NCBI GenBank assembly: GCA_018826295.1
Contig: JAHJZX010000055.1
Coordinates: 1 to 64,000, forward strand
DNA from: Gammaproteobacteria bacterium
Lineage (GTDB): Bacteria; Pseudomonadota; Gammaproteobacteria; Enterobacterales; Alteromonadaceae
DNA length: 64,000 nucleotides
Direction of reading: 5' to 3'
Numbering within the stretch: the stretch's first letter is position 1; each line of letters opens with the position of its first letter. The notes below the pieces were generated by a model. It searched no databases. It was not told the origin of the DNA and was given only the letters and a program-made list of their open reading frames with translations. The position numbers and the translations under genes are program-made. This document shows, in pieces, positions 39,949 through 64,000 of this stretch.

Positions 39949-39950
39949 GG

Positions 39951-40801: not shown

Positions 40802-40805
40802 AGGC

Positions 40806-41264: not shown

Positions 41265-41277
41265 ACGGCGTTACCTG

Positions 41278-41736: not shown

Positions 41737-41774
41737 TTTTTAGCTCCTTTGTATGCCTATTCGTAGTCAGTTAA

Positions 41775-43334: not shown

Positions 43335-43351
43335 GATTAGATCCTTTCTGG

Positions 43352-44790: not shown

Positions 44791-45149
44791 ATTGCTCTTC
44801 TTCCAGCCAAACGTACACCACACAGCCTTCATGGCTGTGACCGATACATCCTGAATTACTTTACGACTGGCAACGCAGCAGCACTAACAGGCTGTCACGC
44901 TGGCCTTGATCTGCAACGGCGGTAAAAGCAAATAACGACAATCGAACGGCAGTTATTTATACAAGCAGGGTACTTAACGCACTTAAAGATAGTGGCTGCG
45001 CCGGACAATGCAAACATATCGCAAATTTATCATCTGAAGATCGACCGGAGCGAAAACTGCAACCGCGGCTGTTGTGTTAGCACGGCTGGCATTGAGTTAA
45101 GTTGTCAGCTCTGTAACAATGGCAGCAGTTTTTTTACAGAGATCCTGTT
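44791..45149. other. Divergent intergenic region between eCIS operon and apbE
   Basis: About 360 bp without a convincing gene. It must hold the eCIS promoter (minus) and the apbE promoter (plus). On the minus strand a TATAAA at about 44960 is a possible -10, but no good -35 accompanies it. The only clear structure is the dyad at 44821-44839. A T run (45129-45135) lies just before apbE. Confidence 0.4.
44821..44839. promoter_or_regulatory. Inverted repeat upstream of the eCIS operon
   Basis: CACAGCC-TTCAT-GGCTGTG, a perfect 7-bp inverted repeat with 5-nt centre, 31 bp before the start of the cap gene. The dyad could be an operator or a leader hairpin. No known regulator site is matched. Confidence 0.35.
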
Positions 45150-47017: not shown

Positions 47018-47024
47018 CACTGGC

Positions 47025-49514: not shown

Positions 49515-49524
49515 GTTATTTCTC

Positions 49525-51951
49525 CTACTGCAGCAACAGTTCTGCACTGGCCAGTACCGCAGTACAGGCCGCTTTGGCAATGGTTTGACTGCGATCATTG
49601 CTGCAGCTGGTGCTGCAGTTACTTAGCCGGTTGATCAGTGCGTCCAGCTCGGCTGCCACCTCAGTGCGCTCAGCCGAAGTTTGCACCGCCAACGGCATTA
49701 AGCGATCCAGTAGCGGCTCAACAAACAAGGCCCGGTTAGCCTCGCTGTACACTGTCGCCGGCGTGGCAGAAAAATCCACTTGCGCAAACCAGCTTTGACG
49801 GATGGCATTGTCATTTATAGCCGCATTGCAATACGCAATACCCAGCTGGGTAATTGCCATTTGCTGCGCTGAAACAAAGGTATCAACGCTATCTGCCGAG
49901 GGTAACTGGCGCTGAATGGTTTGGTATACCTGTGCCACGCCGCTGTGCTGCTGTCCGACACCGGTTAGTGCACTCATGCTGGCATGAATTTCGGCAAAGG
50001 TTCTAAGGCCTATATCACTGTTTGGCTGCGCCACGGCAATAATTTGCTGCAGCGGCGCTGTTGTCGTAGTACGGACATTTTCCCGACTACCAATACGGGC
50101 AAACGACAGAAAAAACTCATCGCTGGCAATGCCCTGCTCGGCAGCAATTATAGTGCCCAGTGCCGATAGCGGCTGGCCCGCAGCCAATGCAGTGCCGCCG
50201 GCCAGCGTAAATTGTTGCTTCAGCCAGGCCTGACCGGTTACTACTTCTTTGCCGTTTAACCCCAGCGCCATACCACTGATCTGCAGCTCATCCGTTAAAC
50301 TGCGGCCTTCGAGGTTAACCAGATAAGGCGCGTTAAATAAATAGGAGTAGCTGTCAAACTGGGCCACCTCAAATACGATATAGCTGTCTGCAACATCAAT
50401 GAGATCGCCAACACCAAACAGCAGATAGAACTTTTGCCCTACCCCGACATCATAATTTTGCTGAATTTGTGCTGCTGTTAGTGCCTTATTGTGAATGGCC
50501 AACAGTCTGATGCTGCCCTGCCACTGCAGGTTACCATTGGCTTCGTTACCAAGGATAAGCGCATAAGTATCATCCCAGTTACGAATGGCCGCCGCCGTAT
50601 CGCGCACACCGGTGTCCTGGCCGTTGACATAAATTCGCCGGCCATTTACCGGGTCCTGCGTCAGCACCACATGCTGTAATGTGGCCTGCAGCACTTCGTC
50701 TGCATCTGCGGTGCTAAGCGCCGGTATACCGGCAAAATCACTACTGTCAGAGCGCAGTAAAAAATCATAGTTATACTGGCTTTGACCCAGTGTCAGATTG
50801 CGCTCGGTATTGCTGCCGGCATAACTGACAATGGCCGCCGGCCCCTCCTGGGTAACATTGGCCGGTACCAGCCAGGCTTCGATGCTAAGCTCGCCAGTAG
50901 CAGAAATAAGCTGCGCCAGCTTACGGCTGTTTTGGGTGCTGGCCTGGGCCCGGCCAGAGTTTATTTGCAAGCCCCAACCTGTTATCCAGTTAATATCGCC
51001 CTGCAGACTTAAGTTAGCCGCCGGTTCAACGCCTGAGGTATCATAAGCAATAGCACCTTCCCCGGTTTTAAACTGGTAAAAGGCAATCTGGCTGGCTTCA
51101 AACCGGCCGCCACTGGAGGCGACCACACCGTCATCCAGCCGCAATGCTTTAGAGACAACAAGCGCCGGATCGATAGCGGTTAGCTCAACGCTGGCAGCAA
51201 TTTGTGTTATCGCGCTTAGCATGTCAGCAGCATTAGCTGTGCAATCGGACCAACAGTTATGGAACTCACCGCCTAAGCGGGCGACAAAACGTGACAGCTC
51301 GGGTGTATCCAGATTAATCAGCTTGCGGCTGGCCTCGTAGGCGGCCGCCAGATTGGCATCAGCAAAAAACGGCGCTTGTGCTTGTGCAGCATCCGGCGCA
51401 TGGCAATTAACACAGTATTGCCGCAATAACGGATAAACCGTGCTGCTAAACAATGCCGGCTCTGCCGGTAACGCTTTGCTGGCACCCGGCTCACGCACCG
51501 GCGGCGCCACCAGCGTTACCGCTGCGGCTTCAGTGTCGCTGCTGTTGGCCCAGTTACGCAGCCACTGCGTTAAGGTATCGCCACAGGCCGTATCGCTGGC
51601 CAGCCAACAGTTGTGGCCGCCACTGACTTTAGTCACCAGTAAAGACTGCGCCGGATCGGCCAGGTTAACCAGTGGCGTAACCGCAGCATAAGCCTGGTTA
51701 ATATCGTCATTCCGGGCAAAAAATGGTGCTGTGTTACCCTGCACATGACAGGCACCACAACGGCTACTCAGCGCAATATTGTCCCACAGTGTCAGTTTAA
51801 ATAACTGAATATCATCGGTTTGCGGCGCAGGGCCGGTGTAATTGGTGTTGTCTTCCTGCACCGGCGGCGGCGGGTTCTGCTCGACTTCAGCGCCACCACA
51901 GCCGCCAAGCAACAAGCTGCATACTAGTATGGGTATGGCATAGTATTTCAT
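49525..51951 (-). CDS. Lipoprotein with two c-type haem motifs and LamG-like domain
   Basis: 808 aa. Lipobox LLLGGC follows a short signal peptide. Two haem-binding motifs, CGACH and CVNCH, each start a homologous block that ends in a GG-x-HNCW motif (GGHNCW; GGEFHNCW). A concanavalin/LamG-like domain follows (about 330-500: LSIEAWLVPANVTQEGPAAI; HVVLTQDPVNGRRIYVNGQD; NLQWQGSIRLLAIHNKALTA). The C-terminal third is unfamiliar. It probably sits at the outer membrane as an electron-carrying or substrate-binding protein. ATG at 51951 is 7 nt after GGGAG; ATG at 51954 overlaps the upstream stop. Confidence 0.8.
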   Translation of the reverse strand: MKYYAIPILVCSLLLGGCGGAEVEQNPPPPVQEDNTNYTGPAPQTDDIQLFKLTLWDNIALSSRCGACHVQGNTAPFFARNDDINQAYAAVTPLVNLADPAQSLLVTKVSGGHNCWLASDTACGDTLTQWLRNWANSSDTEAAAVTLVAPPVREPGASKALPAEPALFSSTVYPLLRQYCVNCHAPDAAQAQAPFFADANLAAAYEASRKLINLDTPELSRFVARLGGEFHNCWSDCTANAADMLSAITQIAASVELTAIDPALVVSKALRLDDGVVASSGGRFEASQIAFYQFKTGEGAIAYDTSGVEPAANLSLQGDINWITGWGLQINSGRAQASTQNSRKLAQLISATGELSIEAWLVPANVTQEGPAAIVSYAGSNTERNLTLGQSQYNYDFLLRSDSSDFAGIPALSTADADEVLQATLQHVVLTQDPVNGRRIYVNGQDTGVRDTAAAIRNWDDTYALILGNEANGNLQWQGSIRLLAIHNKALTAAQIQQNYDVGVGQKFYLLFGVGDLIDVADSYIVFEVAQFDSYSYLFNAPYLVNLEGRSLTDELQISGMALGLNGKEVVTGQAWLKQQFTLAGGTALAAGQPLSALGTIIAAEQGIASDEFFLSFARIGSRENVRTTTTAPLQQIIAVAQPNSDIGLRTFAEIHASMSALTGVGQQHSGVAQVYQTIQRQLPSADSVDTFVSAQQMAITQLGIAYCNAAINDNAIRQSWFAQVDFSATPATVYSEANRALFVEPLLDRLMPLAVQTSAERTEVAAELDALINRLSNCSTSCSNDRSQTIAKAACTAVLASAELLLQ

Positions 51952-51953
51952 CA

Positions 51954-53186
51954 TCAGTCTCCCATACAATATAACGCCGTGTCGGCGAAGACCTGCTTCA
52001 TCCGGTAGCCGCCGGCTTTAAAGCTGTCGGTAATGCTATGCAGCGCATTGACATCACTGAGGCTTTGCGGCTCGCGTAAACAGACGGTACGAAACGCTTT
52101 TTTAACCTGACACTGGGCAAAGGCTTCGGTATGCGCCAGCTCCTGGCCCAGACTTTTGGCACCATTACCCTGGCCTGATAAAGTGTTGTCCCAGCCCAGT
52201 GACTGGTTCTGGCCTTCACGCCAGTAATTTTGCCAGCTGTCATCCGGCGTACTAAAACCGTACGGAAAGGTGCCGGCATTAATATGATACTTCGGCTGCA
52301 CCCGGCTTTGCGTCTGGCTGTTTAGCGTGCCCGGCGCCTGATAAAAAATACGGCCATTACTGCCGTCTTCATCGGTAAACTGGTAGTCGTAGTAAGCAAA
52401 AGCCTGCGCCAGTGGGTCCATACCGGCATGACAACCAACACAACGGTTGTTAAATATACGGCTGTCGCCGCCCGGGCTGCGGCTGACATCCTGGCGGATC
52501 CGATCGGTTGGCCGGCTGATATCCTGCAGCGGCTCTAAATCCGTACACAACTGGCTCATCAGGGTAAAGCGGAACATGGCACGGTTAGTACCGAGGTAAA
52601 AAAATGCTTTGGCCGCCGCGCGGCTGGTCATTACCCCGGCAGCGGCATCGGCCGGTATACCATTTAGCGTGCTTTGTGCCCTGGGCTGCAGATACTGGGC
52701 TAAATCAACCGCCTGCTGCTCCAGCGCCAGATAGTGCGCATTGCTGTCGCTCTGATAAGGCGGCAAGCCTAAGCTGTCAGCGCCAATATATAAGATATCG
52801 GTTTGCAGCAGCTGGCGGTAATCTGCATCATCGCGCACTAAGCCGATTACGGTAGCGACATAGTCATTTAATGGCTCAAACACATCCTGATCGCGATTCG
52901 TCGCGGCGGTGGCAAACAACTTTAATGTGGTACGGTAAAAGTCAGGATGCTGCATGGCCAGCCCGGCCGCAGCGCTGCCATTGCCGCTTTCCAGCAATGC
53001 CTGCATCTGGCTTAATGTCGTCGCATCAGCGGGTACACCGGCTAATCTGTCATGCAGCCGCCGGGCTTGCTCTAAAGAGCCCGCCAGTGCCGGGCTGTTG
53101 TGCAGCAACAGCGCCAGCATAAAGCAGCCCGTAGCTATCGTAGTAGTTATCGTAGTAGCTATCGTAGTACTTATCACAGTACGCAT
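51954..53186 (-). CDS. Exported mono-haem cytochrome-like protein
   Basis: 410 aa with an odd signal peptide built on a 4-residue repeat (VISTTIATTITTTIAT) before GCFMLALLLHNSPALA. One CVGCH motif (about residue 250: RIFNNRCVGCHAGMDPLAQA) and a C-terminal segment HTEAFAQCQVKKAFRTVCLR resembling the DUF1585-type cytochrome tail, where a conserved Cys pair is seen. GGAGG stands 9 nt before the ATG at 53186, so the repetitive leader is translated. It overlaps the following gene's start and is 17 bp after the AgmX/PglI gene. The substrate is unknown. Confidence 0.78.
   Translation of the reverse strand: MRTVISTTIATTITTTIATGCFMLALLLHNSPALAGSLEQARRLHDRLAGVPADATTLSQMQALLESGNGSAAAGLAMQHPDFYRTTLKLFATAATNRDQDVFEPLNDYVATVIGLVRDDADYRQLLQTDILYIGADSLGLPPYQSDSNAHYLALEQQAVDLAQYLQPRAQSTLNGIPADAAAGVMTSRAAAKAFFYLGTNRAMFRFTLMSQLCTDLEPLQDISRPTDRIRQDVSRSPGGDSRIFNNRCVGCHAGMDPLAQAFAYYDYQFTDEDGSNGRIFYQAPGTLNSQTQSRVQPKYHINAGTFPYGFSTPDDSWQNYWREGQNQSLGWDNTLSGQGNGAKSLGQELAHTEAFAQCQVKKAFRTVCLREPQSLSDVNALHSITDSFKAGGYRMKQVFADTALYCMGD
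53136..53183 (-). repeat. 12-bp tandem repeat inside a signal-peptide coding region
   Basis: Four 12-bp units with TATCGTAGTAGT as the type (53136, 53148, 53160, 53172; the last degenerate). They encode the Ile-Xaa-Thr-Thr steps of the signal peptide. Because 12 is divisible by three, slippage alters leader length in frame. Confidence 0.85.
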
Positions 53187-53203: not shown

Positions 53204-54154
53204 TTAGCCCGGTAAGAACTCAACTGTCCAGGTTGAACGGGTTAGCGCCACCTGGGCCGCGCCAAAATTTACCCCACGCAGGCGCAGCGTTAGTTGCCGC
53301 TCCAGTTTGCTGTCGTTTAACTCGCTGCGCACTATACTGACGTCGGCCAGGCTGCCATCCGGGTTAATTACCAGTTCAAACACTACCTTGCCTTTTAGCA
53401 GCGGATTGGCCCGCAGTGCCCGGCTGTACAAGGTATAGAGGCTACTTTTATTGGCCTCCAACACCCGGCGGATTTCCGCTTCAGACCGGCCCTGGCCGCC
53501 ACTACTGCTGCTGTTATTGCTGCGCGGCTGGACATCTTTGCGACCGGTTGCCGACAAGCCTTGCAGAGCCGTTTCGGCCAGCGCCGTCGAGCCGGTGTCG
53601 GCCAGTTCAGAGCGGACAATATCACCGGCTACTGCAGCCGCCTCTGCTGTGGCAAAGGTTTTAGCGGCTTCATTGCGCAGCAACGTACGTTCGACCTGGG
53701 TAGCCTGTTGCTCTCCGCTGCTTTTTACCTGCGGTGCAGTATTGTTAAGCTGAAAACTTTGTCGCAAGGCGGCTAAGTCGTCGCGCATTGCCATTAATCC
53801 TGCCTGTTCGGCTTGCTGACGAGCCAGTTGCGGATCCGGTTTTACCTGCTCAGGTGTGGCCTCTACCGGTTGCGGTTCTGGTTTAGGCGGCTCGATAATT
53901 TGCTCAGGCTGCGGCTCTGGTTCCGGCGGTGGTGGCGCTTTACGCTCTTCAAGCAGCACCCGCGCCAGCTGCGGCGGTAACTGCTCCTGTAGCTGCCGGC
54001 TGCGCTCTGGCACGGTAATCGCCGGCACCACAACCGACACCAGCAACCATATCACCAGGCCCGCCAGCAGCAGACGGTAAAAGGTTCTATCTTCGCCGGC
54101 CAACTGCAGCGTCTGATTAAACTGCGGTGTCATAGCGCTACTCACACTGCTCAT
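53204..54154 (-). CDS. AgmX/PglI-type TonB-like energy transducer
   Basis: 316 aa. One N-terminal membrane helix (about 25-45, LLLAGLVIWLLVSVVVPAIT), a Pro/Glu periplasmic stretch (PPPPEPEPQPEQIIEPPKPE), a coiled region and a C-terminal AgmX/PglI domain: AEIRRVLEANKSSLYTLYSR, GKVVFELVINPDGSLADVSI, RLRGVNFGAA. In myxobacteria this domain occurs in GltG/GltJ-type gliding proteins, linking an inner-membrane motor to the outer envelope. ATG at 54154 overlaps the TGA of the ExbD gene (ATGA) and has GGAGG upstream; the frame is open to 54232. Confidence 0.85.
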   Translation of the reverse strand: MSSVSSAMTPQFNQTLQLAGEDRTFYRLLLAGLVIWLLVSVVVPAITVPERSRQLQEQLPPQLARVLLEERKAPPPPEPEPQPEQIIEPPKPEPQPVEATPEQVKPDPQLARQQAEQAGLMAMRDDLAALRQSFQLNNTAPQVKSSGEQQATQVERTLLRNEAAKTFATAEAAAVAGDIVRSELADTGSTALAETALQGLSATGRKDVQPRSNNSSSSGGQGRSEAEIRRVLEANKSSLYTLYSRALRANPLLKGKVVFELVINPDGSLADVSIVRSELNDSKLERQLTLRLRGVNFGAAQVALTRSTWTVEFLPG

Positions 54155-54681
54155 GGCGCCTCCGACGGCGCTGTCGCAGCGGCTGTCAGCTCTACCGCTA
54201 GCGACAAGTCCCGGTATTCGGTAGTGGCGCAAATTGCCATCAGTTGACGTAACACCAGATAAGGTGTCGCCGCATCGCCCAGCAAGGTCAGGGCCCGGCC
54301 GGTTGGCTGCTGCGCTTCCGTTAACGGCGCGGCGCGTGCCGAAAGATAGTTCAGCTCAGCCGTTAAGGCTGTGGCCAACTCCGGTTGCCAGACGCTGACA
54401 TCCTGTTGCCAGTCCCCCTGCCATAACGGTTTGCCCTGCACTAAAATGCCGTTAGCAGTGATCGTCAGCATCACCTGTTCGGTCGGCAACTGCTCTGACA
54501 CCGAACGCGGCAGGCTGATATCCTTATTACTTTGCAATACCTTAACTTCGGATTGGTTAACCATCAGGAAAAATACCAAGATGGTAAAAATATCCATCAA
54601 CGCCACCAGATTTAACTTGCTGGCCTGCGCCAGCCGCTGGTTTTGCCGCGCCAGCCGTTTTGCACGAAATGACATCTTCAT
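54151..54681 (-). CDS. TolR/ExbD-like motor protein, canonical
   Basis: 176 aa. N-terminal basic tail, then the single helix LNLVALMDIFTILVFFLMVN with the canonical proton-carrying Asp at D30, and a periplasmic domain with the usual strand-helix order (ISLPRSVSEQLPTEQVMLTI; GDAATPYLVLRQLMAICATT). With TolQ-like ExbB it converts proton-motive force to movement. It overlaps the preceding ExbD gene by 4 bp and the AgmX/PglI gene by 4 bp. Confidence 0.9.
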   Translation of the reverse strand: MKMSFRAKRLARQNQRLAQASKLNLVALMDIFTILVFFLMVNQSEVKVLQSNKDISLPRSVSEQLPTEQVMLTITANGILVQGKPLWQGDWQQDVSVWQPELATALTAELNYLSARAAPLTEAQQPTGRALTLLGDAATPYLVLRQLMAICATTEYRDLSLAVELTAAATAPSEAP

Positions 54682-55205
54682 GGTGCGTCCTCCGCCTGCG
54701 GTAACTGGCCTAACGCAATTTGCGGAAACAATTCTGCATCCACCAGCTGGGCCGCCACTACCGCTTTAAACGAACGGACGGTGTCCATTGCCGTGATCAG
54801 CGTCTGGTAGTCCAGCTCATCCGGCGCCAGTATGCTGATATCCTGCTTTTCAATCTGCTTTTGCTGCAAAATCAGTTTTAAATCCTGCAAATACAGGCTT
54901 AGTGCAGCAAAATCATGCTGGCCCTGCTCGGTAAGCTCAAATACCCGCAACGGTTCACCGGCCGGGTAATTCAGCCGCAGCCGGTCAGCATGAATTTCCA
55001 GCTCCAGTTGTTGTGGCTGCTGTTGCTCCTGCTGCAGTTGTTGCTCACTAAGCGGCGGCAACTGAATATGCAACACCCGGATCTGGGTGAACACCAGGCT
55101 GAGCAGCAATACCGGCACCAGCACGATCATCAGGTTCATAAAGGACGTGATATCAAGCTCTGCATCGGCTATGGCAGCTTTACGCCTTCTGAACATCCGC
55201 GCCAC
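54678..55205 (-). CDS. TolR/ExbD-like motor protein with altered membrane Asp
   Basis: 175 aa. The helix reads LDITSFMNLMIVLVPVLLLS: aligned with E. coli ExbD INVTPFIDVMLVLLIIF, the essential Asp is Asn (N24) and the Asn six residues before is Asp (D18). The periplasmic part is Gln-rich (QQLQQEQQQPQQLELEI) and ends FKAVVAAQLVDAELFPQIAL, a TolR-like last block. It overlaps the ExbB gene by 26 bp. A partner role to the canonical paralogue is likely. Confidence 0.87.
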   Translation of the reverse strand: MARMFRRRKAAIADAELDITSFMNLMIVLVPVLLLSLVFTQIRVLHIQLPPLSEQQLQQEQQQPQQLELEIHADRLRLNYPAGEPLRVFELTEQGQHDFAALSLYLQDLKLILQQKQIEKQDISILAPDELDYQTLITAMDTVRSFKAVVAAQLVDAELFPQIALGQLPQAEDAP

Positions 55206-55839
55206 CTTCTGCTTTTTTTGCCAGGCTGTTCATCAGCTTAATGCCGACCATTTCCATGGTGTCGATAATACTGGCGGTTTTACCCTGCAGCAGTGAATGA
55301 ACAAACACCAGCGGTATCGCCGTGATCAAACCAAAGGCCGTGGTGTTCATTGCTACCGAAATACTGGATGATAACAAGCTGGCTTTTTCCGACGGGTCGG
55401 CATTGGCTACTGCAGAAAACGCAGCAATTAACCCCATAATGGTGCCCAGCAGGCCCAGCAAGGTGGCGACATTAGCCAGCGTAGCTAAAAACGGCGTGCG
55501 CTTTTGCAACCGCAGGCTGTATTCCAGTACCACCTCTTCCATGGCGTATTCCATATCTTCGCGCCGCTGTGACAATTGCAGCCGGTTTACCCCGCTGGCC
55601 AGCATAGCCAACAACGGCGCCGCACTGCTGGCTGCCAGCTCGGTAATACGCGGCGTATCAGCCTGGGTTACCGCAGTTTGCACCTGGCGAAAAGCGCGTT
55701 GATTGACAGCGTAAACCGAGCGCAAAAACCACCAACGTTCGACGGCAATCACAATGCCCAACAGCAGAATAAAAGCGATCGGATACATAAAGGCACCGCC
55801 TTCCTGTAAAAACCGGATTGTGCCGTGAAAAAAATCCAT
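55180..55839 (-). CDS. TolQ/ExbB/MotA-like proton channel
   Basis: 219 aa with three membrane helices: 14-34 (GGAFMYPIAFILLLGIVIAV), about 115-140 (TPFLATLANVATLLGLLGTI MGLIAAFSAV read as one helix pair region) and about 160-185 (MNTTAFGLITAIPLVFVHSL). The TolQ signature L..A..ATLLGLLGT..G is intact. ATG at 55839 has GAGG 9 nt upstream; a TTG one codon earlier is in frame. It starts the ExbB-ExbD-ExbD-AgmX block. Confidence 0.93.
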   Translation of the reverse strand: MDFFHGTIRFLQEGGAFMYPIAFILLLGIVIAVERWWFLRSVYAVNQRAFRQVQTAVTQADTPRITELAASSAAPLLAMLASGVNRLQLSQRREDMEYAMEEVVLEYSLRLQKRTPFLATLANVATLLGLLGTIMGLIAAFSAVANADPSEKASLLSSSISVAMNTTAFGLITAIPLVFVHSLLQGKTASIIDTMEMVGIKLMNSLAKKAEGGADVQKA

Positions 55840-55852
55840 CAAATATGTCCTC

Positions 55853-56224
55853 TTATTGTTGTTGTTCCGGGTTAACTAAACGGGTTTGTACCGCGCCTTG
55901 CTGCACGGCGATAAAACGTAAAAATTGCTGCCTGTCCAGCGGTGACACCCTGATTTGCGGCGCAGCCAGGCTGGAAGGGGGAATACGGATGTGCCCGACC
56001 GGTTGCTGCCAGGGCAACACATAAATGGTTTTCGGCTGTTCCTGATTACCACTGATAGTGGATTCAAGCTGCACACTTTGTGGCAGGCGCTGTTGCGCGT
56101 TTTGCCGCACACCAGGCTGGGCACTTTGTGGCACGGATTGCTGCGCATCTTGTTGCACAGATTGCTGCGCACGGGGCGCCAGGCTAAAACAACACATCAG
56201 GCATGCCAGAATACACTTAGTCAT
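55853..56224 (-). CDS. Small secreted Gln-rich protein
   Basis: 123 aa. Signal peptide about 1-20 (KCILACLMCCFSLAPRAQ), a Gln/Ser low-complexity stretch (QSVQQDAQQSVPQSAQPGVR), then a conserved-looking end with YVLPWQQPVGHIRIPPSSL and IRVSPLDRQQFLRFIAV. No family recognised. ATG at 56224 has AGGAG 7 nt upstream; ATG at 56230 is too close. It lies 13 bp before exbB and overlaps the TPR lipoprotein gene by 8 bp, so it is part of the envelope machine operon. Confidence 0.65.
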   Translation of the reverse strand: MTKCILACLMCCFSLAPRAQQSVQQDAQQSVPQSAQPGVRQNAQQRLPQSVQLESTISGNQEQPKTIYVLPWQQPVGHIRIPPSSLAAPQIRVSPLDRQQFLRFIAVQQGAVQTRLVNPEQQQ

Positions 56225-56873
56225 TGCCATTCTCCTGCAAGGTTGCTGCCGGCACAGCGCTGTCGGTTAAGTGCTGCGAGTCCAACTCTTGCTCAAGTAA
56301 AGCCAGCCACAGTTTTACCTGTTCATCTTGTGTCAGCTGATAATATTGCTGGTAGTGATAATGCGCCTGCAATGGCAAGCCCAGATACAGTTCATATAAA
56401 AACGCCAGGTTTTTATGCGCCATGGCATAGGGCTCGCTACCGGCCAGCGCCTGTTTAAAATGCCGCTCGGCAGCGCGCATATCACCGCGCTGTCGTGCCA
56501 GCACACCGAGTAAATTATGGCTGTCGCTATGTTGTGGTGCCACGTCAACCGCTTGCTGCAAACTAAGCTGAGCTGCATCTGTCTGCCCGCTATACCACTG
56601 GGCCAGCGCCAGGTTGTACCAGATACCACCGGCCTCAGGTGCCTGTTTGCTGAGCTGGTTAAATTGGCTTAGCGCCGCTGGGTAATCTTTGTCCAGCAAC
56701 AATTGTTTTGCTGCAGTAAATTGCTGCTGCAGTTCCGCTGTTAATTGCGGCCTGGTTGTAACCACGGTTTCAGCCTCTGGCACAGTGACCGGCGTATCAA
56801 TTACCGGTTGCGATGGCGGCAACTGAGCACAAGCCGATAACAGTAACAGGCTTAAGCCACTAATACGCTTCAT
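56217..56873 (-). CDS. TPR lipoprotein
   Basis: 218 aa. Lipobox LLSAC gives a lipoprotein of about 203 residues. TPR motifs are clear in the centre: AAKQLLLDKDYPAALSQFNQ, GGIWYNLALAQWYSGQTDAA, HNLLGVLARQRGDMRAAERH, AHKNLAFLYELYLG. Such TPR lipoproteins occur beside TolQR-type motors as assembly or coupling factors (for example GltE/AglT in Myxococcus). It overlaps its neighbours at both ends. Confidence 0.85.
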   Translation of the reverse strand: MKRISGLSLLLLSACAQLPPSQPVIDTPVTVPEAETVVTTRPQLTAELQQQFTAAKQLLLDKDYPAALSQFNQLSKQAPEAGGIWYNLALAQWYSGQTDAAQLSLQQAVDVAPQHSDSHNLLGVLARQRGDMRAAERHFKQALAGSEPYAMAHKNLAFLYELYLGLPLQAHYHYQQYYQLTQDEQVKLWLALLEQELDSQHLTDSAVPAATLQENGND

Positions 56874-59721
56874 TGGCTACCCCGGAATACTGTTCAGTTT
56901 TATCAAATTTTGCCGGCAATAACTTAGCCAGCTCCGCAAAACTTTGCGCTATCCAGCTGTCCCATAGTTGTTGGTTGGTCAGGCTGGTGTTTTGCCGGTA
57001 AATGGCAATCGCCTGCTCTTCAAACGGATAGGCCTGCTCTTCCAGCAGCAGTTCATATTCTTCTAACGCCAGTTCGTCCAGGCCTTTGGGCCGGTCTGAC
57101 TGCAGCAGTGCTGTGGCCATCTGCTGATATAAGCTGGCCACGCGATATTGTGCTTCACTAAAGCTGGCAGCCAGGCCGTATTGCATACTTTGCTCTAAGC
57201 GCTTTATTGCCACTGTCATATGCTGGCGTTTTTTCGCCAGACTGCTGCGCAGCGGGTGGCTTAAGCGTACTGCACTAAACAACATACTTTCATGCCGTCC
57301 CAGTGCCAGCAGTGCATCGGCGGCTAACTGGCGGCTGCGTTCGTTGCCCTCGGCTGCATGCTGTTGTTCAAAGCTGGCTATTTTATCCAGCCAGAAATTT
57401 TGCCGGTAACTGTCTTGTTTTTGCTGGTACAGCTGTACCAGCTGGTAGCGCGCTTCCTGTGCCACAAGGTGCGGCTGCGGATAGCGATGAGCGTAGCTGC
57501 GGTAGCTGTTAATAGCGCCATCATTGTCGCCGGCTTTGTGTTGATACTGTGCGGCTAAATATAACGCCTCACGTTGCTGCTCGGCGTCGGTGCTACTTTT
57601 TACCAGTGCCAGCAATTCGGTTGCGGCATCTGCCCACTGTCCGGCCTGTTCATAACTGTCAAGTAACAGCGCTTTGGCGGCCAGTTGGCGCTCGCTATCG
57701 GAGTAACGCGCGATAAAACTGGTTAATAGCGGGATCACCGCAGTAAATTGCTGCGCTTGGTGTAGCAGGCCAATTTGCTGGTAAGCAGCCGCCTGATGAT
57801 AGGCTGAATCTGGCAGGGTTTGCTGTAAACGCGCCAGATGAGCCAGCACCTCGTCAGCAGCTAACTGCGGTAGCTGCGCCTGCTGATAAATACTGGACGC
57901 CAACTGCTGTGTTAACAATGTTCTGCGCTCTGGGCTTAACGCGCTGCTGCCGGCTTGTAATAAGGCTGTGATACTGGCTTCGGCACTGGCATAACGGGCC
58001 AGCGCCAGCTCGCTTTGGCTGTGTAAAAAACGCGCTTCGAGCACCAGAGCCGCATCTGATTGCGCCGGGTGCGGCCAGTCAATCACACTGTTGCTGTGCG
58101 TCAGCACAGCCGGGTAATCCTGCTCGGTGTAGCGCAATTGTAACTGTTGCAAGGCCACTTGCTGGGCGGCGGCATGCTGGCTGTGGTAACGGACAAAATC
58201 AGTTTGCTGTTGCCACAATCTGGCGCCGTTATCCTTGTAGCCGGCTGATAAGGTGCCGGCCAGTAATAGCGCCTTGTAGGCCGCATCCTGCGGGCTGAAT
58301 AAGGTTGGCTCATCTGAGGGCTGCTGATATCCCAGCTCGCTGTAAAGTGCCAGCGCTTGCTCAGACATAGCCGCACCAGCGTAAGATTCGGCCAGCAGGT
58401 AGCGCAGATCGGCGCTGGAATAACGCTGTGCCAGGGCTGTGCGCTGTACTGTCGGTTCAGACAATATCGTCAGCATCTGTTGCCATAGCGGAATAGCCGC
58501 AGCATAGGCCGCCGGTTGCATTTCAGCGCTTTGTTGCTGCGCTGTGCGGTATTGGTTACGGGCAAAATAATCCAGGTACTGCAGTAACAGCGGCGCGACT
58601 TCATTCAGCTCTGCCTCGCGCCCTTGTTGCCAGAAAGCGCTACCGGGAGCAAACAATGCGATATAGCGCTGCTGCTCAGCTAATGCCTGAGCCGCATCGG
58701 CATCAGTCAGATAATACTCAATCAGTAATAACTGCATCCTGGCGGCAGACAAACTGGCCGGATAGTCGCTGATAAACCGGCGGAAACTGTCCAGACTCTC
58801 GGCAAACAGCTGTTTTTCTGCCAAAAAGCCGGCCAGATTGCGATACAAACGCTCAATCAAGGCCAGCGGGCGCTCACCACTGTAATAAGGCAGCCGGCGT
58901 AACAGCGCTTGTAAACTCTCAGCCTGTTGCTGATAACTCAGCGATACACTTAAGGTGTGCAGCACTTCCTGTTGCAGACTTTGCTGGTTGTCTTCATCGG
59001 CCAGATAGCCACTGTAGCTTTGATCCAGCACCGCTAAAAACTGCTCGTCAGCCTGTTCAAACTGCTGCAGTTTAAAGTAACTCCAGCCTGCCATATAACG
59101 GGCATGTTGTTGTAGCTGGGCATCGCCGGCGCCTAATACCTGCAAATAAGCGGCCAGTGCATCAGCATACTGACTGCGGCTATACAGAATATCTGCCTGA
59201 CGAAACCATAACTCGGCGGCAAACTCAGACCTTGGATAATGCTGTAAAAACTGCTGCAGCTGCTCCAGACACGCTTGCTGCTGGCCAAGTAAGTCATAGC
59301 TGCGGGCCAGTTGGTAGCTGATCAGCTCGTTATTAGGATCATCCGGGTACAGCTCGAGCAACTGCTGGTATTGCTGCACCAATTGCTGCAATTCTGCCTG
59401 CTCTTGTTGCGCTGACAGCTCTGCCTTATCTAATCTGGCGGTATGCATTTGCGATAAGCGGTACTGAATTTTCTGCCGCATTTGCGCCGCCGGCTGCAAT
59501 TGCAAGATCTGCTGATACAATTGCGCCAGCTGTTGTTCACTGACGCTGACATCCTGCGCCAGTATGCTGCGATCAAACGGCGCTATATCGCCAAGCCGGG
59601 GCCGGCTGTGCTGGCCCGCTGGCCCGCTGCAGCCTGCAACCGTGGCCAGCGTCAGGGCAGAAAGCAGTGGCCAGAGTAATAGCGGGTGCTGACATGACTG
59701 AGCAGTTCGCCGCTTAATCAT
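56860..59721 (-). CDS. Large TPR lipoprotein (953 aa)
   Basis: Long helical-repeat protein with a lipobox in TLATVAGC near residue 30. TPR-like repeats run through most of the length, for example LLELYPDDPNNELISYQLAR, FLQHYPRSEFAAELWFRQAD, RFISDYPASLSAARMQLLLI, TSFIARYSDSERQLAAKALL. They have the YP-x-S-x-x-A spacing of YbgF/BamD-like repeats. The C terminus (LLEEQAYPFEEQAIAIYRQN) resembles AglT-type proteins. ATG at 59721 has GGAGG 6 nt upstream. It overlaps the coiled-coil gene by 8 bp. Confidence 0.85.
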   Translation of the reverse strand: MIKRRTAQSCQHPLLLWPLLSALTLATVAGCSGPAGQHSRPRLGDIAPFDRSILAQDVSVSEQQLAQLYQQILQLQPAAQMRQKIQYRLSQMHTARLDKAELSAQQEQAELQQLVQQYQQLLELYPDDPNNELISYQLARSYDLLGQQQACLEQLQQFLQHYPRSEFAAELWFRQADILYSRSQYADALAAYLQVLGAGDAQLQQHARYMAGWSYFKLQQFEQADEQFLAVLDQSYSGYLADEDNQQSLQQEVLHTLSVSLSYQQQAESLQALLRRLPYYSGERPLALIERLYRNLAGFLAEKQLFAESLDSFRRFISDYPASLSAARMQLLLIEYYLTDADAAQALAEQQRYIALFAPGSAFWQQGREAELNEVAPLLLQYLDYFARNQYRTAQQQSAEMQPAAYAAAIPLWQQMLTILSEPTVQRTALAQRYSSADLRYLLAESYAGAAMSEQALALYSELGYQQPSDEPTLFSPQDAAYKALLLAGTLSAGYKDNGARLWQQQTDFVRYHSQHAAAQQVALQQLQLRYTEQDYPAVLTHSNSVIDWPHPAQSDAALVLEARFLHSQSELALARYASAEASITALLQAGSSALSPERRTLLTQQLASSIYQQAQLPQLAADEVLAHLARLQQTLPDSAYHQAAAYQQIGLLHQAQQFTAVIPLLTSFIARYSDSERQLAAKALLLDSYEQAGQWADAATELLALVKSSTDAEQQREALYLAAQYQHKAGDNDGAINSYRSYAHRYPQPHLVAQEARYQLVQLYQQKQDSYRQNFWLDKIASFEQQHAAEGNERSRQLAADALLALGRHESMLFSAVRLSHPLRSSLAKKRQHMTVAIKRLEQSMQYGLAASFSEAQYRVASLYQQMATALLQSDRPKGLDELALEEYELLLEEQAYPFEEQAIAIYRQNTSLTNQQLWDSWIAQSFAELAKLLPAKFDKTEQYSGVANEAY

Positions 59722-61603
59722 TGCGCGCCTCCGCTTCAGCCGGCCCGGCAAGCAGCAACACCCGCTCCATCACCCGCGCCATGGCTTCTTTGTTGTAGCG
59801 TTGTAAATCTGCCAGCGTAGCCAAATCCTGCTGCCGTCGTTGCTGCAACTGTTGGTTTAACTGTGCCAACAGCCGTTGCTGCTGGCTGAGTAATGCCAGG
59901 TTTAGCTGTTGCTGCTGGCCATTAAGCTGGCCCAGGCGCAGCTCTATCTGACTTAACCGGGCGGCTTTATCGCCTTGTTGCTGCAGTGCTGCCAGATTAA
60001 CGTCCAGCTGTTGCACAGCGCTATCGAGTGCGGCCAGCGCGCGCTGACGCTGCAACTGACGTTGCGCCGAGCTGTCGTAATATTGCCACTGTAACAGGCC
60101 ACGCAAACGTTGCAGCCTAAGCTGATAGCGGGCGTTAGCGGACTCGGCCCCGCTTACCTGCAGCTGCGCCAGACGCTGCTCGGCCTGTTGCAACAAACTC
60201 AGCTGTGGATGCAGACTGTTATCGGCCAGCAGCAGCGACATAGGCTCAGCGCCGGCCTGGCTGATGTGTTGCTTAAGTTGCCCGGCTTGCTGCAGTAGCG
60301 TTTGTTGCCGCTGTTGTAAAACAGGTAGCTGACTGCTTAGCAGCTGTTGCTGCTGCGCCAGTTTATACGCCGTTACCTGCTCCAGCCGGTTTAACCGTTG
60401 CTGGCGCACCGGTGCCTGACGCAATTGTTGCTGCAGGGCCAGGATGTCCTGCTGTAGCCGGTTTAACTCATTGTGCTGCGACACTTGCAGTTGCTGCCAG
60501 TCTGACAGGCCCTGCTCTAACTGGGTAACCTGCAACGGCGCTGCTTGTTGTTGTATTAATTGCTGTTGCTGACGGTAATACTGATCTGCCCAGCGATAGG
60601 CTGCCAGTGCATCTTGTTGTTGCAGCGCCCGCTCCAGTTGTTCCCCGATGCGGGTTGCCGCCTGCCAGGCGATGATGCTAAAGGGCTGCAGTTTAATTTG
60701 TTGCTGCAACACCGACAGTAACGTCGGGATATGGCGTTGCTCGGTAAGAATGTGGCTGTATAATCCCAGCGCAGCCGGGCTCAGTACGCTGTTGGCGGCG
60801 AAGTCACTTAAAATGGCATCCGCAGCGGCAAAGTCCTGCTGGCTGATATGCAGCTGGGCCTGTAACAATTGCAGATAATCATGCAGCGCCTGGTATTCAT
60901 CCTCGGCATAAACAAAACCTTGTGGCTTCGACACTACATACCAATCACTGCTGAACAACAATTGCCACTGGCCGCTAAACAGCAATTGCCAGAAACTTTG
61001 CTGCTGTGGTCGCTGTAAATGCTGTTGCAGCCCATCCAGCCATTGCAGCGCCTGCTGCGGCTGTGCTTGCGCTAACGCCAGCGCCTGGTTACTGATGATA
61101 TAAGGCATTTCTGCCTGCTGCTGCAAAGCGGCGAAATCCGGCGCAGAGGGGATGTCGATGTACGGCCAGTTTAGTAACTGTTGCAGCAACTGTTGTTGGC
61201 CCAGCCAGCTTTGATCAGCAGCGATATTTACCCGTGACAAGTAGTGTTTAGCGGCACTTTCGTTGCCCAGTTCCAGCTGATGGCGGGCAAATTGTAACAG
61301 GGCAATATTTAACAAAGATTGCGGTAACCCTGCTGCGGCGTCGTCCTGTACCAGCGGTGCCAATACCTTAGCGGCATGCTGTGGCATTGCCAGTTGCAGG
61401 TATAAGCCGGCTTCAAGTAACTGCGTGCGCTGATCCTGCTGTGGCGCCAGCTGCAGGGTTTCCAGCGCCTGCGCCGGTTGTTGCAGATAAAAATCCCAGG
61501 CCGCCTGCCGGTAGTGCTTGTCGCCCAGTGCCGTTTGCGCCGATGCAGCAACACTGCATAGCGCTAAGCAGCACGCTGCGCCTAGCCTCAATCGTTGGAC
61601 CAT
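59714..61603 (-). CDS. Secreted Gln-rich coiled-coil/TPR protein (629 aa)
   Basis: Signal peptide 1-22 (LGAACCLALCSVAASAQ). The first half has TPR-like helices (LEAGLYLQLAMPQHAAKVLA; LNIALLQFARHQLELGNESA). The second half (about 350-600) is a long, very Gln-rich coiled coil (QQDILALQQQLRQAPVRQQR; LAQLNQQLQQRRQQDLATLA). No enzyme motif. It is probably a periplasmic scaffold of the same machine. It overlaps its upstream neighbour by 16 bp and the TPR lipoprotein by 8 bp. No strong ribosome site is seen before the ATG, suggesting coupled translation. Confidence 0.75.
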   Translation of the reverse strand: MVQRLRLGAACCLALCSVAASAQTALGDKHYRQAAWDFYLQQPAQALETLQLAPQQDQRTQLLEAGLYLQLAMPQHAAKVLAPLVQDDAAAGLPQSLLNIALLQFARHQLELGNESAAKHYLSRVNIAADQSWLGQQQLLQQLLNWPYIDIPSAPDFAALQQQAEMPYIISNQALALAQAQPQQALQWLDGLQQHLQRPQQQSFWQLLFSGQWQLLFSSDWYVVSKPQGFVYAEDEYQALHDYLQLLQAQLHISQQDFAAADAILSDFAANSVLSPAALGLYSHILTEQRHIPTLLSVLQQQIKLQPFSIIAWQAATRIGEQLERALQQQDALAAYRWADQYYRQQQQLIQQQAAPLQVTQLEQGLSDWQQLQVSQHNELNRLQQDILALQQQLRQAPVRQQRLNRLEQVTAYKLAQQQQLLSSQLPVLQQRQQTLLQQAGQLKQHISQAGAEPMSLLLADNSLHPQLSLLQQAEQRLAQLQVSGAESANARYQLRLQRLRGLLQWQYYDSSAQRQLQRQRALAALDSAVQQLDVNLAALQQQGDKAARLSQIELRLGQLNGQQQQLNLALLSQQQRLLAQLNQQLQQRRQQDLATLADLQRYNKEAMARVMERVLLLAGPAEAEARND

Positions 61604-62097
61604 GGCATCACGACAAATTCTGGCTGGTAATCACTGCTACGGTCTTTGATCTGTAACTCCAGCAGCACGGCATCTTCGGCTTTATCAAACGGGTAGCTGA
61701 CGGCACGGCGATAGTCGCGGTTGTCCGGGCCTTTGCCAACAAAAACAGCAGTAAGGTTATGCTTACCGGCATTAACATTGGTTTTAAACAGCGGCTGGAT
61801 TGCACCGCGTTGCAGCGCATGCCACTGCTGCTCGGTATACAGATGGGCGGCTATCGGTTTATCGTTTAGGTGCAGCTCGACGCTGTCGAGGCGGAAAAAC
61901 TGGCCGGTATCTACCGATAAAAATAGTGCCAACTGAGTTTGTGGCGGAAACAGCAGTTCTTCTTCCAGTAAAAATAATTCGCGGTTCAACTGTATAACCT
62001 GCTGTCGTAGCTGCTCCAGTTGTTCCGCTGCTGGTGCCGTATTGGCGTGGGCCAGATTGCCGGACCAGATTAACACCATCAGTACTAAGGCTCTCAT
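61588..62097 (-). CDS. Secreted protein of unknown family in the envelope-machine operon
   Basis: 169 aa. Signal peptide 1-18 (ending NLAHA), a coiled-coil segment (QLEQLRQQVIQLNRELFLLE), then a beta-rich domain (LALFLSVDTGQFFRLDSVEL; KHNLTAVFVGKGPDNRDYRR; EDAVLLELQIKDRSSDYQPE). It resembles small uncharacterised proteins found beside TPR and ExbB genes in related operons. AGGAAC precedes the ATG. No catalytic residues are evident. Confidence 0.65.
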   Translation of the reverse strand: MRALVLMVLIWSGNLAHANTAPAAEQLEQLRQQVIQLNRELFLLEEELLFPPQTQLALFLSVDTGQFFRLDSVELHLNDKPIAAHLYTEQQWHALQRGAIQPLFKTNVNAGKHNLTAVFVGKGPDNRDYRRAVSYPFDKAEDAVLLELQIKDRSSDYQPEFVVMPWSND

Positions 62098-62109
62098 GCT
62101 GTGTTCCTG

Positions 62110-63264
62110 TTAAAAATAAAGACTGAAAAACGCCCGCAACACATTGGCATCTAACCGGTAAAGCGGCTCTTGCCCGGTGGCTGTTTGCGTAATGGTTACG
62201 TTGCGAAAATTCTTATAATTAAAGCGGATATGGTCCCACTGCAGATTTAGCTCGGGCCTGGCGGTGGGCCAGAACGACCAGCGGCTTAGCTGGTAACTGG
62301 CGCCCAAACCCACTGTCAGGTTGTTGAACTCACTGAGCTCTTTATCACGTGCCATAAAATTTTGCTGGCTGGCAAAGTCAAATAAATCACGGTAAAACTC
62401 GGCCTGACTCTGGCTGTACCAGCGCAGTTTGGCTTCGAGTATCCAGCGTTCGGTCAGCGGGTGCACATATTCCAGCTCGGTATCAAAGGCGCGGATATCC
62501 CAACTATCCTGATAATGGCGTAAATTCAGGCTTAAGGCTGCTCGGTATGGCAGATACCATTTATTGACCAGTGACAAGGCAAAGGTATTGCGGCTGTTAG
62601 GATAGACTTCGGCTTGCCAGGCAAAGCCACGCGGATCAGCGCTGTCGATATAGCGCACACTGCGATACGGATTGTTCAAAAAGCCCTGATCTAAATCGAC
62701 CTGCATATTCAGCGCCGCGATCCAACGACTACTAATTACCTGGGTTAAGCCAACTTTATAGTTGGAGCGCTTTACCTGTTCACGAAAGCTGTCATCACCA
62801 TTGCGGCCAACAGTGTCATCGCCCAGACCCGCTTCCAGGCTCAGCGTGGTCATACCGCCAAAGGTGTCATGCGCTATACCAAAGGATACCGATTTGGCGT
62901 TGTAGTCATTTTCATCGCTTTGCGCATAATTCAGGCTGATAATGCTGTTGCCACTGAGGTAGTCGACACCCAAACGCGTTTCGCGGCGGGTTTCGGTATA
63001 GGCCGATGCTGTTGCCTGCACATCAATAGAGGCACCTGAAACCGTATCAACATAATGGTAAGCCGACAGCGACACCGACTGGCCGGCTTTTTTCCTCAGC
63101 ATAAGCGCCGGGCCGTCAATAGACACACCACCGCCCTGATAACTGTGATACAGCAGATCGGCCCTATCTTGTGGCAGTACTGCAGCGTGCAATGCAGTGC
63201 TGCCGGCCAATAGCAATATAACCAGCAGTCTAATTACAACCACAGCCACCGCCTGTACTGCCAT
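62110..63264 (-). CDS. DUF3570 outer-membrane barrel-like protein
   Basis: 384 aa, with a signal peptide ending in STALHAA. It has many alternating beta strands and ends ...RAFFSLYF, with a C-terminal aromatic typical of outer-membrane barrels. Matches to DUF3570 include the opening DRADLLYHSYQGGGVSIDGP then LMLRKKAGQSVSLSAYHYVD and the strand VDTVSGASIDVQATASAYTE. Function unknown. ATG at 63264 (AAGGGG upstream) overlaps the DUF4266 gene by 35 bp; GTG codons inside that overlap are alternatives. Confidence 0.85.
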   Translation of the reverse strand: MAVQAVAVVVIRLLVILLLAGSTALHAAVLPQDRADLLYHSYQGGGVSIDGPALMLRKKAGQSVSLSAYHYVDTVSGASIDVQATASAYTETRRETRLGVDYLSGNSIISLNYAQSDENDYNAKSVSFGIAHDTFGGMTTLSLEAGLGDDTVGRNGDDSFREQVKRSNYKVGLTQVISSRWIAALNMQVDLDQGFLNNPYRSVRYIDSADPRGFAWQAEVYPNSRNTFALSLVNKWYLPYRAALSLNLRHYQDSWDIRAFDTELEYVHPLTERWILEAKLRWYSQSQAEFYRDLFDFASQQNFMARDKELSEFNNLTVGLGASYQLSRWSFWPTARPELNLQWDHIRFNYKNFRNVTITQTATGQEPLYRLDANVLRAFFSLYF

Positions 63265-63463
63265 TAGCCCCTTTTGCCGCTTCACGGGAATCCTGTACGT
63301 GTGCCACATGCTGCAGCGCCACCGGGTGGCGGCCAAACGCCATTATCGGATCGGCCAGCTGGTTACGCTCGTACGGCTTAACCCAGGGGTCAATGCTGGC
63401 ACAGCCCGTGCTACCCAATAGCAATATGGCTAGCAGGCATGACGGCAAACCGCGCTTATTCAC
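63230..63463 (-). CDS. DUF4266 lipoprotein
   Basis: Small lipoprotein of about 77 aa: signal with lipobox LLGSTGC, then the DUF4266 signature CASIDPWVKPYERNQLADP, IMAFGRHPVALQHVAHVQDS and a Cys/Gly tail GGGCGCN. GTG at 63463 overlaps the TlpA stop (GTGAATAA) and gives a normal signal peptide (MNKRGLPSCLLAILLL); an ATG at 63490 with GAGA upstream is the alternative. It pairs with DUF3570 in many genomes, probably with a shared metal or redox-related job; the activity is not known. Confidence 0.85.
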   Translation of the reverse strand: MNKRGLPSCLLAILLLGSTGCASIDPWVKPYERNQLADPIMAFGRHPVALQHVAHVQDSREAAKGANGSTGGGCGCN

Positions 63464-63926
63464 GCAGCAGTTGCTTAATATCGTTTTCATATTTTTTCTC
63501 GTAGCCGGGCTGATAACCGCGATGCACTGCCCGAACCTTGCCATCTTTATCTAAAATCACCGTCGTCGGCATCGCATCTACCTGATATGCCTTAGACACA
63601 CTGTTATCCAGATCAAACAAGATAGGAAACGCCACCTGTACTTTACTCAGGTAGTTTTTTGCTGCGCTGCTGTCACTCTCAACGTTAACGCCCCATACCT
63701 GTACACCCAGTGGCTGATACTTCTGTGCCAGTTTATCCAGTGCCGGCATTTCCTGAATACAGGGGCCACACCAACTGGCCCAGAAGTTAATCAGCATGAT
63801 GTCGCCTTTTTGCTCTGCCAGCCGTAAATTGCTGCCATCGAGTGCTTTAAGGGTAAAGTCCGGCGCTGTTGCCCACAGCTGGTTACTGGCAAGCAGCAAC
63901 AACAAGCTGAAAATCCACTGTTTCAT
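63456..63926 (-). CDS. TlpA-like thiol:disulfide oxidoreductase
   Basis: 156 aa with a signal peptide (1-19, ending NQLWA). Thioredoxin fold with active site WCGPC in LINFWASWCGPCIQEMPALD and cis-Pro MPTTVILDKDG. It acts in the periplasm on cysteines, plausibly of the adjacent Cys-rich DUF4266 lipoprotein or of apocytochromes encoded downstream. GGAGA precedes the ATG. Confidence 0.92.
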   Translation of the reverse strand: MKQWIFSLLLLLASNQLWATAPDFTLKALDGSNLRLAEQKGDIMLINFWASWCGPCIQEMPALDKLAQKYQPLGVQVWGVNVESDSSAAKNYLSKVQVAFPILFDLDNSVSKAYQVDAMPTTVILDKDGKVRAVHRGYQPGYEKKYENDIKQLLRE

Positions 63927-63937
63927 AATGTCTCCAG

Positions 63938-64000
63938 TTAAAAGTACACCGCTACGCCAAGGCCTAATGCCAGGTTGTGCGTGGTTTTAGTGCGCGCCAG
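63938..64000 (-). CDS. C-terminal end of an outer-membrane beta-barrel protein (cut by window edge)
   Basis: The last 20 codons (LARTKTTHNLALGLGVAVYF then TAA at 63938-63940) end in a beta strand with terminal Phe, the Bam-recognition mark of outer-membrane barrels. Such barrel genes precede TlpA/DUF4266 in related operons. It is on the same strand, 11 bp before tlpA. The start is outside the window. Confidence 0.55.
   Translation of the reverse strand: MARTKTTHNLALGLGVAVYF

Follow-up and report, generated by a model that had tools for sequence, protein, structure and literature searches.

The window analyzed here, positions 1 to 64,000 of a 285,857-base contig (JAHJZX010000055.1, assembly GCA_018826295.1) from a gammaproteobacterium, carries on its minus strand an operon of 18 genes that joins an Agl/Glt-like motor and its periplasmic proteins (the core) to a set of predicted outer-membrane redox proteins (the module). 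The two halves very probably work together. The operon spans contig positions 47,937-67,884, its start (67,884) lying beyond the window. Read 5′ to 3′, it begins with genes for an HZS-alpha-like lipoprotein, an SH3-barrel protein (SH3OMP), the barrel protein OMP209, a thioredoxin, a DUF4266 lipoprotein, and a DUF3570 protein, continues with p169, CC629, T953, T218, p125, ExbB, ExbD1, ExbD2, and AgmX, and closes with a PSD2-like protein, a LamG lipoprotein, and a twin-arginine protein. Nine of the 18 genes make up the module: those for the DUF3570, DUF4266, thioredoxin, HZS-alpha-like, two barrel, PSD2-like, and LamG proteins and the twin-arginine partner of the last two. Intergenic gaps across all 18 genes range from -38 to +17 bp and the next same-strand gene follows only after 111 bp; because of these overlaps and short gaps, we regard the genes as a single operon. 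A preliminary description of the window, made from its letters alone, had likewise recognized one operon, but the operon proved longer at both sides. Its expectation of at least one outer-membrane barrel holds for the DUF3570 protein, a likely barrel, but understated the right-hand part, which is a whole redox module. The gene order is kept across dozens of genomes, and the arrangement is therefore not due to chance. The source bacterium is Rheinheimera-like: among named relatives, the closest matches to its DUF3570 protein come from Rheinheimera (up to 83% identity).

Co-occurrence of module and core was assessed in a class survey of 229 genomes and an order survey of 148, with at least two genomes (G000 and G139) in both. 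The survey genomes are largely drafts, and a module on another contig than its core may reflect either a gap or a true distance. In the class survey, the module was defined as DUF3570 plus SH3OMP or OMP209, and the 35 genomes holding it and their 23 family codes were compiled by hand; G187, whose contig ends inside the core, was counted, and G076 and G186 (contig-end fragments) and G052, G101, and G136 (DUF3570 without the module barrels) were not. AgmX scored above its cut-off in 34 of these 35 genomes versus 20 of the 194 others (p 2e-25, the genomes not being independent). In the order survey, all 17 genomes with a module-type DUF3570 have AgmX, versus 8 of 131 others, and AgmX occurs in 3 of the 23 genomes holding other DUF3570 types alone. 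G187 is thus the only module genome without AgmX among the 35 and 17 surveyed. Even within one genus code (g197), G278 has both module and AgmX, and G353 and G368 have neither. The 160-bit boundary between DUF3570 types was chosen after looking, and for this reason the genomes were recounted by gene content and with a profile of the module DUF3570s themselves. Scores on that profile are bimodal (≥290 versus ≤108 bits), marking the module proteins as a distinct group.

Physical linkage was examined at loci whose genes were labeled with profiles derived from proteins of the window. The class-survey loci fetched were those with the lower-scoring DUF3570 type, those with AgmX above its cut-off, and five ordinary DUF3570 loci; two contig-end fragments (G048:C68 and G076:C351) were left out. 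The motor lies on the same stretch as the module in 17 of the 35 module genomes. In 10 others the module stands beside two to five periplasmic core genes with the motor elsewhere, and in two of these (G056 and G193) the motor stands alone, as in a split operon. In the remaining 8, no more than one core gene adjoins the module or (G187) the contig ends. None of the five ordinary DUF3570 loci has a core alongside. A further set of named loci, the best 80 of 419 relatives and hence nonrandom, contains the complete SH3OMP-OMP209-TlpA-DUF4266-DUF3570 set in 78 cases. p169 and CC629 occur in the same stretch in 57 of the named loci, 55 of them with ExbB and both ExbDs, and DUF3570 is less than 150 bp from p169 in 54 of the 57. 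Where a module locus lacked the core, whole-genome searches found AgmX above its cut-off elsewhere, i.e., outside the fetched stretch, in 19 of 20 genomes. These 20 comprise 18 of the 21 core-less complete modules (without L221, L226, and L231) plus the contig-cut L230 and L235, and the sole miss, L236, is a 1.9-Mb metagenome assembly.

The p169 tree provides a second line of evidence. Its 28 module-linked and 24 other copies are separated by 3 changes, whereas shuffled labels required 17.5 on average and at least 10 in 2000 trials; motor-less copies were included, and L091 and L152 were labeled by hand as module linked. In seven genomes (G036, G064, G077, G081, G128, G137, and G197), two copies of the same genome fall on opposite sides. 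This pattern marks a module-linked lineage of p169. Furthermore, eight genomes (G035, G036, G064, G077, G081, G178, G197, and G204) combine a module and periplasmic core genes that have no adjacent motor with a second core elsewhere, which has a motor and its own periplasmic genes. Modules would in these cases share motors, resembling the single Agl motor of Myxococcus xanthus (AglRQS) that serves both the Glt and the Nfs proteins (PMC3858216). Motors were searched for only via their AgmX partner, and the root of the ExbB tree is meaningless because the outgroups sit on very long branches.

The motor half corresponds well to what the preliminary description had proposed. Family matches confirm one TolQ, two TolR, an AgmX/PglI TonB-like protein, and TPR lipoproteins in the expected place on the minus strand. 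AgmX matches NF033768 with 58.2 bits against a cut-off of 40, whereas the GltG model aligns with its tail only (36.5 of 650 bits) and the GltG and GltJ models remain below their cut-offs, as do TonB_C (18.6 versus 24.6 bits) and TIGR01352 (21.1 versus 27.1). The motor of the operon likewise falls short of the family models for tolQ (59 of 221 bits) and tolR (19 of 127) and of those for ExbB and TonB. Sequence searches of the PDB returned ExbB and TolQ as the solved relatives of the window ExbB and TonB fragments only for AgmX. No FHA domain was matched in the window AgmX, which by its sequence is a putative GltG-like force transducer without that domain. An SxHxS-like motif, the TonB/TolA histidine signature described in PMC12204202, was found in none of 102 AgmX proteins, and 9 of the 102 have any His close to the transmembrane helix.

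The two ExbD proteins differ at the membrane aspartate. In 112 pairs drawn from the survey and the named loci, many of them closely related, ExbD1 has Asn in 111, and ExbD2 has Asp in 111 and a gap in one. The three other ExbDs of the source genome have Asp at this position. PMC9389320 assigns the membrane Asp to both AglQ and AglS of M. xanthus and states that it is not yet known whether the two form hetero- or homodimers; in a review, a conserved AglQ proton site is considered essential (PMC9120999). The earlier analogy with AglR, AglQ, and AglS therefore holds for the number of genes but not for the first ExbD. If the usual two ExbDs per motor apply, a single proton site would be present in a heterodimer, and an ExbD1 homodimer would lack any. 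The Asn/Asp asymmetry is seen in the sequences themselves; what it means for the mechanism is inferred.

Place, size, and TPRs of T218, T953, and CC629 fit GltE, GltD, and GltC, respectively, in a comparison with family models rather than M. xanthus sequences. TIGR02795 was matched in all 20 T953 members scanned, and 69 of 77 relatives show the lipobox pattern. The coiled-coil periplasmic protein of the preliminary description is present as CC629, which had no family match itself in the profile scan; TPR models do match other proteins of this family. The GltC model was matched by 2 of 22 CC629 members (best 4.5e-4) and 1 of 20 T953 members, all weakly. Since the Glt models match so weakly, it is mainly by place and size that the TPR proteins are equated with GltC/D/E. 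The Agl/Glt likeness suggested at the outset is thus sound for motor and transducer and for the fit with a published core (see below), but less so for the TPR proteins. p169 had no Pfam match in the two members scanned and nothing convincing in a PDB sequence search.

On the module side, the closest precedent comes from Chlorobium luteolum, whose ApbE was shown to flavinylate a DUF3570 protein; DUF3570 genes co-occur with DUF4266, thioredoxin, and ApbE genes (PMC8238504). The module DUF3570s end in an aromatic residue in 109 of 112 members. At the flavin-site position the window protein reads D-T-V-S-G-A-S, and most survey members have Ser for Gly (SSAS). A wide pattern, D..[ST][SG]A[ST], picked after viewing the alignment, fits 31 of 36 survey and all 78 named module DUF3570s. 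The strict motif [ST]GA[ST] was dropped as a group-wide hallmark, being absent from most survey members; the window protein has one such site (SGAS), versus the two expected for the DUF3570 flavinylation cluster. Covalent flavin on the DUF3570 protein is nonetheless likely, judging by these motifs. A PDB sequence search for DUF3570 gave nothing useful. The C terminus of the DUF4266 lipoprotein is CGC, followed by no more than two residues, in all 42 survey and all 79 named members, the best Pfam match of the thioredoxin is Redoxin rather than PF13899, and OMP209 belongs to TIGR04565 (OMP_myx_plus; cut-off 60 bits). Two ApbE genes are present in the source genome, one of them ∼16 kb from DUF3570 on the opposite strand, and ApbE directly follows DUF3570 in four loci (L070, L071, L073, and L218).

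CxxCH motifs are equally regular. The HZS-alpha-like lipoprotein, with a marginal TolB propeller match (15.5 of 343 bits), has two in 76 of 77 long named open reading frames (ORFs) and two or three in most survey members; the PSD2-like protein has one in 63 of 63 and the LamG lipoprotein two in 50 of 51 long named ORFs. These proteins would accordingly be candidates for heme loading. Five lipoprotein families are present in the cluster, and heme motifs, CXC ends, and lipobox patterns recur throughout the families. The twin-arginine protein, with no Pfam or NCBIfam match, occurs in 52 named loci beside LamG, which likewise occurs in 52. In Verrucomicrobia, PSCyt proteins with LamG-type domains lie beside unknown partners, and a role in carbohydrate metabolism was suggested for them (PMC5615132).

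We propose that the operon encodes one trans-envelope machine. Powered by the proton gradient, ExbB and the unequal ExbD1/ExbD2 pair would drive AgmX, the transducer, which, via the periplasmic TPR proteins and p169/p125, would act on an outer-membrane redox complex made of the flavin-bearing DUF3570 barrel, two further barrels, the heme lipoproteins, and the CXC lipoprotein with its thioredoxin. The motor may assemble, place, or open this complex at the cell surface, where electrons could pass between it and an external partner, perhaps a polysaccharide or a metal. We give this reading a probability of about 0.5; flavin attachment, heme loading, location, motor action, electron direction, and substrate all enter it as predictions. 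A broader idea, that surface redox proteins were the original or main cargo of the Glt-like core, delivered, moved, or gated by a one-site unequal motor, and that myxobacterial gliding is a re-use, is put forward tentatively and is doubtful.

Several observations weigh against the proposed machine. Among module DUF3570s, no more than 6 of 36 from the survey and 34 of 78 from the named loci keep the published site [ST]GA[ST], and five survey proteins (L076, L078, L090, L154, and L155) lack even the wide pattern. One LamG relative per set (L085 and one named ORF) has no CxxCH, ApbE lies inside the fetched stretch for just 8 of the 35 module genomes, and an inner-membrane electron donor such as DsbD was not among the scanned operon proteins. 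In the p169 tree, support for the module group is only 87/93, and the group includes L147, L106, and L158, none of which is beside a module, although the L147 genome has one elsewhere and L106 and L158 sit on long branches. The T953 tree splits less well (8 changes), with the G204 and G077 copies grouping by genome. Finally, the core is present without the module in 20 of 194 class-survey genomes, and the motor is therefore not redox specific; module-less cores in L110 and L148 are followed by DUF11 proteins of 2790 and 1610 aa.

This last point bears on the possibility that the core is a general machine for delivering or anchoring surface proteins, with the redox module as just one client. 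DUF11 proteins also follow the cores of L126 and L143, where stretch or contig cuts them after 3062 and 2041 aa; in L116 (1-2,176), the protein directly after the core, possibly a second redox cargo, is truncated by the contig end (≥725 aa) and carries 21 CxxCH motifs together with MtrC/MtrF-like domains; in L117, a ShlB/FhaC-type transporter follows. The ExbBs of these six loci and of L162 group together (98/95) despite coming from genomes of different families. Such exchangeable cargoes make the core look like a general machine, as do the five lipoprotein families of the cluster, and the redox module is the most frequent cargo recognized for it. As a separate explanation this is unlikely, since it fits the proposed redox machine rather than opposing it and no sign of secretion itself was seen. 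Some cores and motors have other neighbors. In L100 (9,785-13,415) and L105 (6,121-9,719), a core with its motor lies ahead of two genes, one for a DsbH-like thioredoxin protein and another that encodes a Kelch protein in L100 and was not scanned in L105. A motor subtype without periplasmic core genes follows genes of ∼240, 270, and 890 aa in L120, L127, L128, and L161; in L120, the only one scanned, the ∼890-aa protein combines a protein kinase with a sulfatase-modifying-factor domain.

Alternatively, the motor might open a barrel for TonB-like uptake of a substrate freed by the surface redox proteins, e.g., iron mobilized by reduction, which we consider rather unlikely. The solved relatives of ExbB, the three predicted barrels of the operon, the iron links of other flavinylation clusters (PMC8238504), and a family-3 solute-binding protein 111 bp downstream on the same strand, adjoined by a second one, are all in keeping with uptake. 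However, no TonB-dependent receptor was among the proteins scanned, and AgmX proteins lack the histidine signature of TonB and TolA. The barrel proteins of the operon have 209-384 aa, and TonB-dependent receptors are far larger, which also counts against import. Motor and transducer of the same types, the OMP_myx_plus family of OMP209, and motor sharing as described for Agl with Glt and Nfs (PMC3858216) would also suit an Agl-Glt- or Agl-Nfs-like motor for gliding or surface transport that carries the redox proteins as minor passengers. The first ExbD without Asp speaks against such a motor, which we regard as improbable; the models for CglC and CglE, from the Group A and adhesion proteins of the gliding machine, had no match in the source genome either, a result of little weight because the control genomes were silent too. 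No positive evidence was found for gliding or polysaccharide export, two of the purposes envisaged in the preliminary description. A coincidental joining of two unrelated operons by gene transfer is very improbable: horizontal transfer of the core was inferred by Luciano et al. (PMC3169522), but co-occurrence holds where module and core sit on different contigs, both are jointly present or absent within one genus code, and p169 has a module-linked lineage.

Table 1. Genes of the operon and the neighboring ApbE gene (contig positions, identical to window positions up to 64,000)
Feature	Position	Strand	Evidence
HZS-alpha-like lipoprotein, two CxxCH	65,278-67,884 (outside window)	-	HZS_alpha 1.4e-15
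SH3-plus-barrel protein (SH3OMP)	64,537-65,277 (outside window)	-	ORF upstream of OMP209
OMP209 outer-membrane barrel gene	63,938-64,567 (only 3′ end, 63,938-64,000, inside window)	-	TIGR04565 146.9 bits
ResA/TlpA-like periplasmic thioredoxin	63,456-63,926	-	PF08534 1.2e-31; ResA model 118 bits, below cut-off of 170
DUF4266 lipoprotein, C terminus GCGCN (CXC)	63,230-63,493	-	PF14086 8.9e-22
DUF3570 protein, likely outer-membrane barrel, flavinylation-like site SGAS	62,110-63,264	-	PF12094 1.2e-43
p169, exported core protein, no known family, module-linked lineage	61,588-62,097	-	p169 tree
CC629, exported TPR/coiled-coil protein, 629 aa (GltC-like place)	59,714-61,603	-	Syntenic family built here
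T953, large TPR lipoprotein, YbgF/BamD-like repeats (GltD-like place)	56,860-59,721	-	TIGR02795, lipobox pattern
T218, TPR lipoprotein (GltE-like place)	56,217-56,873	-	TPR_16 3.8e-11; GltE model weak, 4e-5
p125, small exported core protein, conserved short motif	55,853-56,230	-	Profile matches in 57 loci, alignment
ExbB/TolQ-type motor subunit (AglR-like)	55,180-55,842	-	PF01618 9.4e-28
ExbD1, Asn at membrane Asp position	54,678-55,205	-	PF02472 9.5e-14
ExbD2, membrane Asp retained	54,151-54,681	-	PF02472 2.8e-11
AgmX, one transmembrane helix, Lys/Pro-rich linker, AgmX/PglI C-terminal domain	53,204-54,154	-	NF033768, alignment
PSD2/DUF1585-like protein, one CxxCH	51,954-53,186	-	PF07624 2.4e-4, below cut-off; 1 of 3 relatives scanned above cut-off
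LamG lipoprotein, two CxxCH	49,525-51,954	-	PF13385 5.9e-20
Exported twin-arginine protein (SRRDF), partner of PSD2-like and LamG heme proteins	47,937-49,520	-	Motif
ApbE flavin transferase, outside operon	45,150-46,121	+	PF02424 1.4e-80

The solute-binding proteins mentioned above lie on opposite strands at window positions 46,214-47,825, between the operon and ApbE, and the ORF list shows no permease beside them. A contractile injection system cluster adjoins the operon (window 33,655-44,832, minus strand) and encodes a tail sheath, two gp19-like tubes, a CIS tube protein, a baseplate-hub/spike protein, and a Pvc16-like protein.

The core was described in 2011 as an ancestor of the gliding motor and left without a function (PMC3169522). 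Its tight and widespread tie to a flavin/heme module makes that function testable in Rheinheimera, Shewanella, Colwellia, and Microbulbifer, genera with cultured members. If the proposal is true, a force-generating motor of the ExbB/TolQ family would act on extracytoplasmic redox proteins. The Asn/Asp pair bears on whether two TolR-like proteins act as a heterodimer (PMC9389320).

Among known systems, Ton and Tol-Pal share with the operon the ExbB/TolQ and ExbD/TolR families and a TonB-like C-terminal region. The present motor, in contrast, stays below the TolQ, ExbB, TolR, and TonB family cut-offs, no TonB-dependent receptor was found among 28 neighboring proteins scanned, and no Pal among the operon and neighbor proteins scanned. 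An ordinary Ton/Tol system, the outcome that would have spoken against an Agl/Glt-like machine, was rejected on the missed cut-offs and the lack of a receptor among the scanned proteins. The flavinylation clusters of Meheust et al. 2021 (PMC8238504) resemble the module in DUF3570, the CXC-ended DUF4266, thioredoxin, and ApbE in the genome. They differ in that here the site is mostly SSAS, the DUF3570s form a distinct group, the thioredoxin is of the Redoxin type, and heme lipoproteins, barrels, and a motor are added; the main text of that paper does not mention ExbB, TolQ, or gliding. With Agl-Glt and Agl-Nfs of M. xanthus, the operon has in common the AglRQS-type motor, the AgmX/PglI tail, and one motor for two periplasmic modules. 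Unlike here, both AglQ and AglS are reported to have the membrane Asp (PMC9389320), GltG carries an FHA domain (PMC3169522, table 1), and flavin or heme partners are absent from the passages on Agl-Glt/Nfs.

The closest likeness is to the core that Luciano et al. (2011) described: homologues of aglR, aglQ, aglS, gltC, gltD, gltE, and gltG lie in one region in all non-Deltaproteobacteria holding them, and in Geobacter, together with one additional gene, the function being called unknown (PMC3169522). In Gammaproteobacteria this core is termed "standalone," again with unknown function (PMC3169522; Wartel et al. 2013, PMC3858216). Gene content and sizes of the present operon fit that description, with one TolQ-like and two TolR-like proteins in a row, a GltG-like transducer, and three TPR proteins, so the Agl/Glt resemblance as such is not new. 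The differences are the two small extra genes p169 and p125, both candidates for the published additional gene, which Myxococcales lack, the missing FHA domain, and the Asn/Asp ExbD pair. The main text of PMC3169522, taken apart from its figures and supplements, does not mention cytochrome, redox, electron transfer, thioredoxin, flavin, or DUF, and among the matches listed in open-licence full text none joins AgmX, PglI, or AglRQS with flavinylation. Judged on open-licence full text, what is new in this operon is the tie of the core to an outer-membrane redox module together with the unequal ExbD pair.

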